56,552 bases of DNA. Source: Acidobacteriota bacterium. Lineage in GTDB: Bacteria > Acidobacteriota > UBA6911. The position numbers and the translations under genes are program-made. Each line of letters opens with the position of its first letter. The first letter of the stretch is position 1. Shown piece by piece: positions 13,613-17,047 of the stretch. Under the pieces are notes generated by a model. That model was not told the DNA's origin. It did no database searches and saw only the letters and a program-made list of their open reading frames with translations. The DNA is taken from NCBI GenBank assembly GCA_012719355.1, contig JAAYAM010000034.1:1-56552 (forward strand), in the 5' to 3' direction.

Positions 13613-13933
13613 ATGATAACGATGACGCCGGTGGCAATTGCCAAGGTCAAAGCCATCCTCGCGGAGCGCAACGAGGAGTCGGGCCTTAGAATCGCCGTCG
13701 CAGGTGGAGGCTGTTCGGGATTTCAGTATCAGATGACCTTGGATAAAGAGCCCCGAGCGGATGACAGAGTTCTGGATCTGGAAGGACTCAGGGTATTTGT
13801 CGACACGCGTTCGCTCCTCTATCTGAACGGGACGACAGTTGATTATGTGGATGGGGCCAACGGTTCGGGATTCAAGTTCGATAATCCCAACGCCAGGGCT
13901 TCGTGCGGTTGGGGGGAGACATTCGAGGCGTAG
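13613..13933 (+). CDS. A-type iron-sulfur carrier (IscA/ErpA family) with third Cys replaced by Trp
   Basis: A 106-residue HesB/IscA-family protein that would pass Fe-S clusters to apo-enzymes. The first ligand motif GGGCSGFQY is intact (Cys34). The C-terminal motif, normally CGCG, reads CGWG (Cys98, Trp100), verified in the codons TGC GGT TGG, so one of the three conserved cysteines is gone. Start is ATG 13613 after AAGGGAAGGAG, downstream of a sigma70-like promoter at 13549-13577 that rules out the longer frame. A classic terminator follows at 13963-13990, so the gene may be monocistronic. Complex I, NuoI/NuoB and the HdrD-like protein in this window are all possible clients. Confidence 0.88.
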   Translation: MITMTPVAIAKVKAILAERNEESGLRIAVAGGGCSGFQYQMTLDKEPRADDRVLDLEGLRVFVDTRSLLYLNGTTVDYVDGANGSGFKFDNPNARASCGWGETFEA

Positions 13934-16029: not shown

Positions 16030-16061
16030 TTGAAGATCATTTGCAGAGTGCGTGCTATGAT
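16030..16061 (+). promoter_or_regulatory. Extended -10 promoter candidate of the Fur-ferritin gene
   Basis: TGCTATGAT at 16053-16061 is an extended -10 element (TGN plus TATGAT). TTGAAG at 16030-16035 lies 20 bases upstream, too far for an ordinary -35. I see no Fur-box palindrome over it. Confidence 0.4.
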
Positions 16062-16093: not shown

Positions 16094-17047
16094 ATGTCAA
16101 TGAGAAAGCTTAAGGAAGAAACTGAATTATTCTATTCCTATTTGCGGCAGAACGGACTCAAGAAGACCTACCAGAAAGACCTCATACTGGAAACCTTTCT
16201 CAACACTGAGGGACACCTCAGCGTAGAAGACATCTATGCTCTTGTGAAGAAAAGAGATAAGAAGGTGGGGGTCGTAACGGTCTTCCGCACCCTGAAATCT
16301 CTTACGGCGTGCGGCATTGCCAGGGAAATCACTCTGGGAGACGGACTTACACGCTTTGAGCACAGCTACCATCATCCTCATCATCATCACATCGTCTGCA
16401 CTGAATGCCACAGAGCCATTGAGTTTGTCTGCCCGGAACTGGAGCGGATACAGGACGAGATCATCCAGCGGTATCACTTCAAGCCGATCCACCACCGTTT
16501 CCAGACCTATGGGATCTGCGAGGACTGCCGGGAGCATCGGCCGGTGACTGAAATCCAGAAGCACGACACCGAGCGCATTTTTGCACGCGATGCCGTGAAG
16601 ATGGCGCTGGCGATGGAAAACCGCTGCCTCCAGTTCTACCGTGATGCGGCTCGGCGGAACCAGGACCTCGGCGGCAGAGAGGTGCTGCAACGGATGGTTG
16701 AGGAAGTGGAAGCCCATATTGCCGACCTTAACGCGCAACTCGAAGAGATCGTCCGGCAGGAGAAAAACCTCGAACGTGCCCCCATTTTCCTGCACTTCGA
16801 CCCCTGCGAACTGGAGGCTTTGATCCCTGACCTGTCAAAGTATGAGACTGACGGGGAATTCAGACTCGATGTCCAGGCTTCCACGGAACTCGCCCTCACC
16901 TTGAACAGCAACGCCGGCGAGTTCTTCAGGAAATACGCGGAGAGTTTTGACGAGACCAGGGGGAAGCAGATCCTGATCAAGTTTGCCGAACAGGAAGCCG
17001 CGCACAATGATCTCGTGCGGCAGCGGGTGCAGGAAACCGTTGTTTAA
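16094..17047 (+). CDS. Fur-family regulator fused to a ferritin-like domain
   Basis: A 317-residue fusion. Residues 1-155 are a complete Fur/PerR-type repressor: winged helix (KTYQKDLILETFLNTEGHLS, then VGVVTVFRTLKSL), a His-rich segment (HHPHHHH) and the two structural zinc pairs CTEC (102, 105) and CEDC (142, 145). Residues 160-317 form two helix pairs like a rubrerythrin/ferritin core, with E175 in ALAMENRCLQFY, an EEVEAH cluster at 203-208, and EQEAAH (E301, H304). The equivalent of E175 in the second half is N271, so the di-iron site is incomplete. The start follows GGGAGGAG. An extended -10 lies at 16053-16061. A sensor coupling DNA binding to iron or peroxide chemistry is inferred. Confidence 0.85.
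   Translation: MSMRKLKEETELFYSYLRQNGLKKTYQKDLILETFLNTEGHLSVEDIYALVKKRDKKVGVVTVFRTLKSLTACGIAREITLGDGLTRFEHSYHHPHHHHIVCTECHRAIEFVCPELERIQDEIIQRYHFKPIHHRFQTYGICEDCREHRPVTEIQKHDTERIFARDAVKMALAMENRCLQFYRDAARRNQDLGGREVLQRMVEEVEAHIADLNAQLEEIVRQEKNLERAPIFLHFDPCELEALIPDLSKYETDGEFRLDVQASTELALTLNSNAGEFFRKYAESFDETRGKQILIKFAEQEAAHNDLVRQRVQETVV

Follow-up and report, generated by a model that had tools for sequence, protein, structure and literature searches.

A predicted Fur-type regulator fused to a ferritin-like domain in Acidobacteriota, with diiron ligands conserved across most homologues and incomplete in nearly all of one family

Fur senses iron through a single regulatory site, and PerR gained peroxide sensing through a small change at that site. 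In the ferritin-like superfamily, of which an internal repeat is expected, classical rubrerythrin combines a rubredoxin FeCys4 domain with an extra glutamate in helix 3. Among open-licence PMC papers we found no report of a protein joining Fur to a domain of ferritin-like, rubrerythrin or erythrin type. Both domains are already known, and it is their joining, together with the deep conservation of the joined form, that is new in the gene described here. A Fur protein that carries, apart from its own site, a strictly conserved diiron domain would offer a different route to sensing iron and oxidants in one regulator. Acidobacteriota are abundant in soils, and the control of iron there has been little studied.

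The gene lies in a 56,552-nucleotide stretch of Acidobacteriota DNA (assembly GCA_012719355.1, contig JAAYAM010000034.1), hereafter the window, at positions 16094–17047 of the forward strand. A single ATG-initiated frame of 317 amino acids, free of internal stops, joins a Fur domain to ferritin-like helices, as the preliminary description of this DNA had claimed, and the recurrence of the same frame elsewhere bears that claim out. The search of related genomes that it had proposed recovered the fusion: among 60 relatives searched, full-length copies turned up across the genus, family and class to which the window belongs, and the full-length architecture was detected in 48 of 247 sampled Acidobacteriota genomes, where a fusion was called at E ≤ 1e-42 with a match from the Fur CxxC onward. 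Free-standing ferritin-like proteins fell clearly apart in the phylum sample (E ≥ 1e-25), with nearly all of their matches beginning past the linker. The architecture recurs at 26–80% identity in dozens of other genomes, and a collection-wide scan with one genome per species, using a single peptide pattern that was itself built from Acidobacteriota sequences, returned 37 named loci, 37 of 37 from this phylum, to which the fusion is likely restricted. In a tree of the Fur half the fusion proteins group together, and their distribution takes three state changes, for which a single gain followed by two losses could account; this is compatible with one origin.

The preliminary description had also considered that homologues might carry the two halves as separate genes with a stop between them, and no such neighbouring pair was found among the homologues. 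Fur-only relatives occur, without an adjoining ferritin-like gene; an N-terminal gap at one locus (L074) is a run of N and one copy (G014) ends at a contig end, so that neither is a split gene. A chance event or an assembly artefact that fused two genes has practically no probability left, as an architecture common to those 48 phylum genomes and to the 37 named contigs, from independent studies and with no interposed stop in any, already refutes it. We also rejected the idea that the fusion is the sole Fur of its genome, since a second Fur is present there, cut by a contig end.

The N-terminal Fur domain (residues 20–139, positions 16151–16510, forward strand) comprises a winged helix and a dimerisation domain and matches PF01475 over profile positions 2–121 of 121 (E = 1.1e-28, 100.2 bits against a curated cut-off of 23.1). 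Its zinc site consists of the CxxC pairs C102/C105 and C142/C145, the second of which lies just beyond the Pfam match, and its regulatory site consists of three histidines and two carboxylates (H41, E89, H97, H99 and E110), which align with H37, D85, H91, H93 and D104 of PerR. These metal ligands are invariant in every homologue having the positions. Fur has a glutamate where PerR has Asp104, a residue that governs H2O2 access, and glutamate there is linked to H2O2 insensitivity (PMC4866751). A PerR-like sensor, with peroxide detected at the Fur site, has one point in its favour: B. subtilis PerR (2fe3, 1e-21) stands with Campylobacter Fur (6d57, 4ets) among the nearest solved structures. Nevertheless, we regard it as very improbable, since the counterpart of PerR Asp104 is Glu110 in every homologue having the position, and NCBIfam ranks its Fur model above its PerR model for the window protein (2e-28 versus 1e-17). 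On the evidence of Glu110, and with both carboxylate ligands being glutamates, we assign the Fur half to the Fur type rather than the PerR type, and peroxide sensing of its own is not expected. The initial reading of a complete Fur/PerR domain with two CxxC pairs is thereby narrowed: the domain is complete, and the PerR part of the label falls away.

For the C-terminal half (residues 159–316, positions 16568–17041, forward strand), AlphaFold2 predicts four long helices at residues 159–188, 192–221, 260–282 and 289–316 (pLDDT 89, pTM 0.83), and modelling this half alone gave a similar result (pLDDT 90, pTM 0.86). In Pfam the window copy by itself remains below threshold (Ferritin 0.005, Rubrerythrin 0.011) because it has diverged; Rubrerythrin (PF02915) is matched by 22 of 25 aligned family members, at best with 1e-13. 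Compared with solved structures, the family profile matches ferritin-like diiron proteins (2fzf at 2.7e-10, 1vjx at 2.4e-9, and also 2oh3), and hhalign aligns it end to end with free-standing erythrins of related genomes, over 153 columns and with 99.4% probability. The top Foldseek matches of the C-terminal half are nearly all ferritin-like (ferritin-like, Mn-catalase and Dps structures) at probability 1.0, with modest E-values (0.01 upward) and a TM of about 0.5, and the window protein also gives weak matches to the Er domain of MbfA (NF045676, 1e-5) and to bacterioferritin. Both the domain search and the structure prediction that had been suggested for this protein thus agree with a ferritin-like second half, of the rubrerythrin/COG1633 type, next to a strongly matching Fur domain. 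As separate observations, frames of 285–559 residues at G073:C1, G161:C95, G247:C9 and G209:C178 embed a ferritin-like domain and are possibly further erythrin fusions, and one free-standing erythrin gene (L035, G008:C211) lies less than 1 kb from a NorB-like COX1-family gene.

Alignment of the homologues places six diiron ligands in this domain, in the order E, ExxH, E, ExxH, and the window protein retains four of them. Glu175 in helix 1 (16616–16618) is kept and is Glu in 58 of 63 homologues; in helix 2, His208 (16715–16717) is kept and the residue three before it is Val205 (16706–16708), where 59 of 63 have Glu; in helix 3, Asn271 (16904–16906) stands at a position that is Glu in 54 of 63; and the helix-4 motif Glu301-Ala-Ala-His304 (16994–17005) is intact (Glu in 60 and His in all 63 homologues). 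All of these codons are on the forward strand. These residues agree with those noted at the outset, namely Glu175 in helix 1, Asn as its counterpart in helix 3, and an ExxH that is clean solely in helix 4. The spacing is identical in both halves of the domain, at 30 and 33 residues (E175 to 205 and 208; 271 to E301 and H304), in keeping with the internal repeat that this superfamily should show.

Outside the window's family, all 52 of 52 homologues carry the full set, and in the 50 of these that are full-length the six ligands are among only 17 invariant columns of 155; a hand calculation puts the chance that all six chosen columns are invariant near 1e-6, a value that serves as a guide only, the columns having been recognised in the same alignment. 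Inside the family, one protein in 11 (L061, gp18) has all six, and the other ten lack at least one. The ratio of C-half to Fur-half distance has a median of 3.2 there and 0.88 elsewhere, a large contrast, compared over a matched range of Fur identity, between pairs that are not independent; the window protein and its nearest relative are 96% identical over the Fur half and 66% identical over the C-terminal half.

With Val205 and Asn271 replacing two glutamates, the window protein probably lacks a normal diiron centre, although weak or mixed metal binding is possible, given that four of the six ligands remain. The original proposal that the protein carries its own iron- or peroxide-reacting site, and would be a direct sensor, therefore applies better to the wider family, most members of which have the complete ligand set, than to the window copy, where the site is doubtful and belongs to a lineage in which it decays. 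As the diiron site decays in just this family, the window copy is, judged by its ligands, the wrong place to seek a working second iron site. Anaerobic life was rejected as the reason for ligand loss: the window genome has five COX1-type matches, and the pattern across the family is unclean.

In 31 of 64 distinct loci, a gene for an ErpA/IscA-type Fe-S carrier lies directly upstream of the fusion on the same strand. Nearly all of these loci have gaps between -67 and +94 bp, in many cases of a few tens of bases, an operon-like arrangement. A directly preceding erpA is a feature of Vicinamibacteria-type genomes; the linkage holds for one large clade, and many other members of the fusion family are without it. 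Seven relatives in the window's family have erpA 3.4–6.4 kb upstream. In the window itself, an erpA/IscA-like gene (13616–13933, forward strand; PF01521, 2.9e-22) is found about 2.2 kb upstream of the fusion, separated from it by folB, a peptidase gene and a methyltransferase gene, and downstream of the fusion lie genes for a dihydrolipoamide dehydrogenase-type protein, a lipoyl transferase and a 2-oxoacid dehydrogenase acyltransferase. The product of the window's erpA-like gene ends in ASCGWGETFEA where relatives have CGCG, with Trp in place of one C-terminal Cys expected to hold the Fe-S cluster; this is a single-base change and possibly a sequencing error.

A probable promoter and operator of the fusion gene (16031–16061, forward strand) consists of TGAAGATCATTTGCA at 16031–16045 and the extended -10 element TGCTATGAT, with TATGAT at 16056–16061. 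In eight species of the genus, TGAAGATCATTTGCA and the extended -10 TGnTATGAT are kept at nearly fixed spacing while the surrounding DNA is not conserved, and the fusion gene likely has its own promoter. TGAAGATCATTTGCA agrees with the 7-1-7 Fur box (consensus after the review PMC7762939) at 10 of 14 positions; because this match is not significant by itself, with 13 equal-score matches in the window, repression by the fusion of its own gene is something we infer. Elsewhere, the erpA–fusion promoter has, in a single subclade, a palindrome, TATACCAA-N8-TTGGTATA, with variants, over its -10 (TATAAT), upstream of erpA at loci L079, L082, L086, L087, L092 and L094. Several of these palindrome-bearing promoters lie only 5–10 bases before the start codon, which suggests a leaderless mRNA. 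When an operator like that of the fusion gene was sought at feoB promoters, three orthologues yielded no more than a loosely similar sequence, TGAAA-N5-TTTCA; of its seven exact copies in the genome just one precedes an iron gene, and this line of evidence was rejected. In feoB orthologues of the genus (L155, at G000:C363 near 33480, L137 and L144), the sequence or a near match directly follows an extended -10 promoter resembling TGGTATGAT and is noted as a candidate iron operator.

Taken together, we consider it fairly probable that the fusion is a two-domain metalloregulator in which a Fur-type repressor is joined to a ferritin-like half whose ancestral diiron input is gone or changed in the window's family. 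The N-terminal half would repress genes by binding DNA in an Fe(II)-dependent manner. In its ancestral and still prevalent form, the C-terminal half would hold a diiron centre through the twice-occurring (E, ExxH) set; iron loading of this centre, or its oxidation by O2 or peroxide, could then tune how strongly iron and Fe-S genes are repressed, among them the fusion's own operon with erpA. Iron binding, oxidant sensing and autoregulation are steps that we infer for the fusion protein. Members of the window's family have lost diiron ligands piecemeal from a fast-evolving domain, and the window protein is best regarded as a functioning Fur in which the ferritin-like part is either a remnant or serves a different purpose, structural or with an altered metal. 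More tentatively, and at somewhat below even chances, the fusion may be a dual-input regulator found mainly or only in Acidobacteriota, its Fur site reading Fe(II) and its diiron domain reading O2, peroxide or a second iron level, which would jointly control an Fe-S assembly operon; if so, the window's family would amount to an experiment of nature, with the second sensor switched off and the first kept. The metalloregulator reading is weakened by the confinement of the erpA linkage to one large clade, by the distance of the window's erpA, by the weakness of the operator evidence, and by Foldseek E-values above 0.01 for the C-terminal half.

Two other readings account for parts of the same evidence. 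The C-terminal half could now serve structure or oligomerisation alone, in the window's family and perhaps beyond it, a reading that we hold to be rather unlikely although it suits the ten family members that lost ligands yet keep both helices and frame, the fast divergence of this half there, and the Fur-only relatives in the same clade, which indicate that the Fur half can stand alone; it leaves unexplained why the ligands are invariant over deep divergence outside that family. Less probable still is an attached iron buffer: as a ferroxidase or an iron-holding module, the ferritin-like domain would load the Fur site or shield it and would sense no oxidant. The ligand set, of the bacterioferritin/erythrin type and without the additional helix-3 Glu of classical rubrerythrin, speaks for such a module, as do the weak MbfA and bacterioferritin matches, but a role in regulation fits the links to a DNA-binding regulator and to erpA no less well. 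Since proteins with intact and with missing diiron ligands both occur in nature, what the second site does can be tested directly.

Compared with Fur proteins (PF01475), the fusion has the same winged-helix and dimerisation domains, Fur-type regulatory ligands and CxxC zinc pairs, and adds a C-terminal ferritin-like domain of 160–170 residues. It shares the four-helix fold with rubrerythrin-like/COG1633 diiron proteins (PF02915; 2fzf, 1vjx (TM1526) and 2oh3) and, in most members, the (E, ExxH) pair present twice, but is fused to Fur and, in the window copy, falls two ligands short. Unlike classical rubrerythrin, it has no rubredoxin domain (no Pfam match in the window protein), its four cysteines belonging to the Fur domain, and position 274, three residues after the helix-3 ligand position, is not Glu. 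MbfA, an erythrin domain joined to a VIT1 iron exporter (NF045676), likewise places an Er-type diiron domain on an iron-homeostasis protein, but is a membrane exporter, whereas the fusion is a predicted DNA-binding regulator. The idea of a diiron four-helix domain inside an iron regulator is also common to the iron and oxygen sensor FBXL5 (reviewed in PMC4356067), which is a eukaryotic ubiquitin ligase with a hemerythrin fold and an unrelated regulator.
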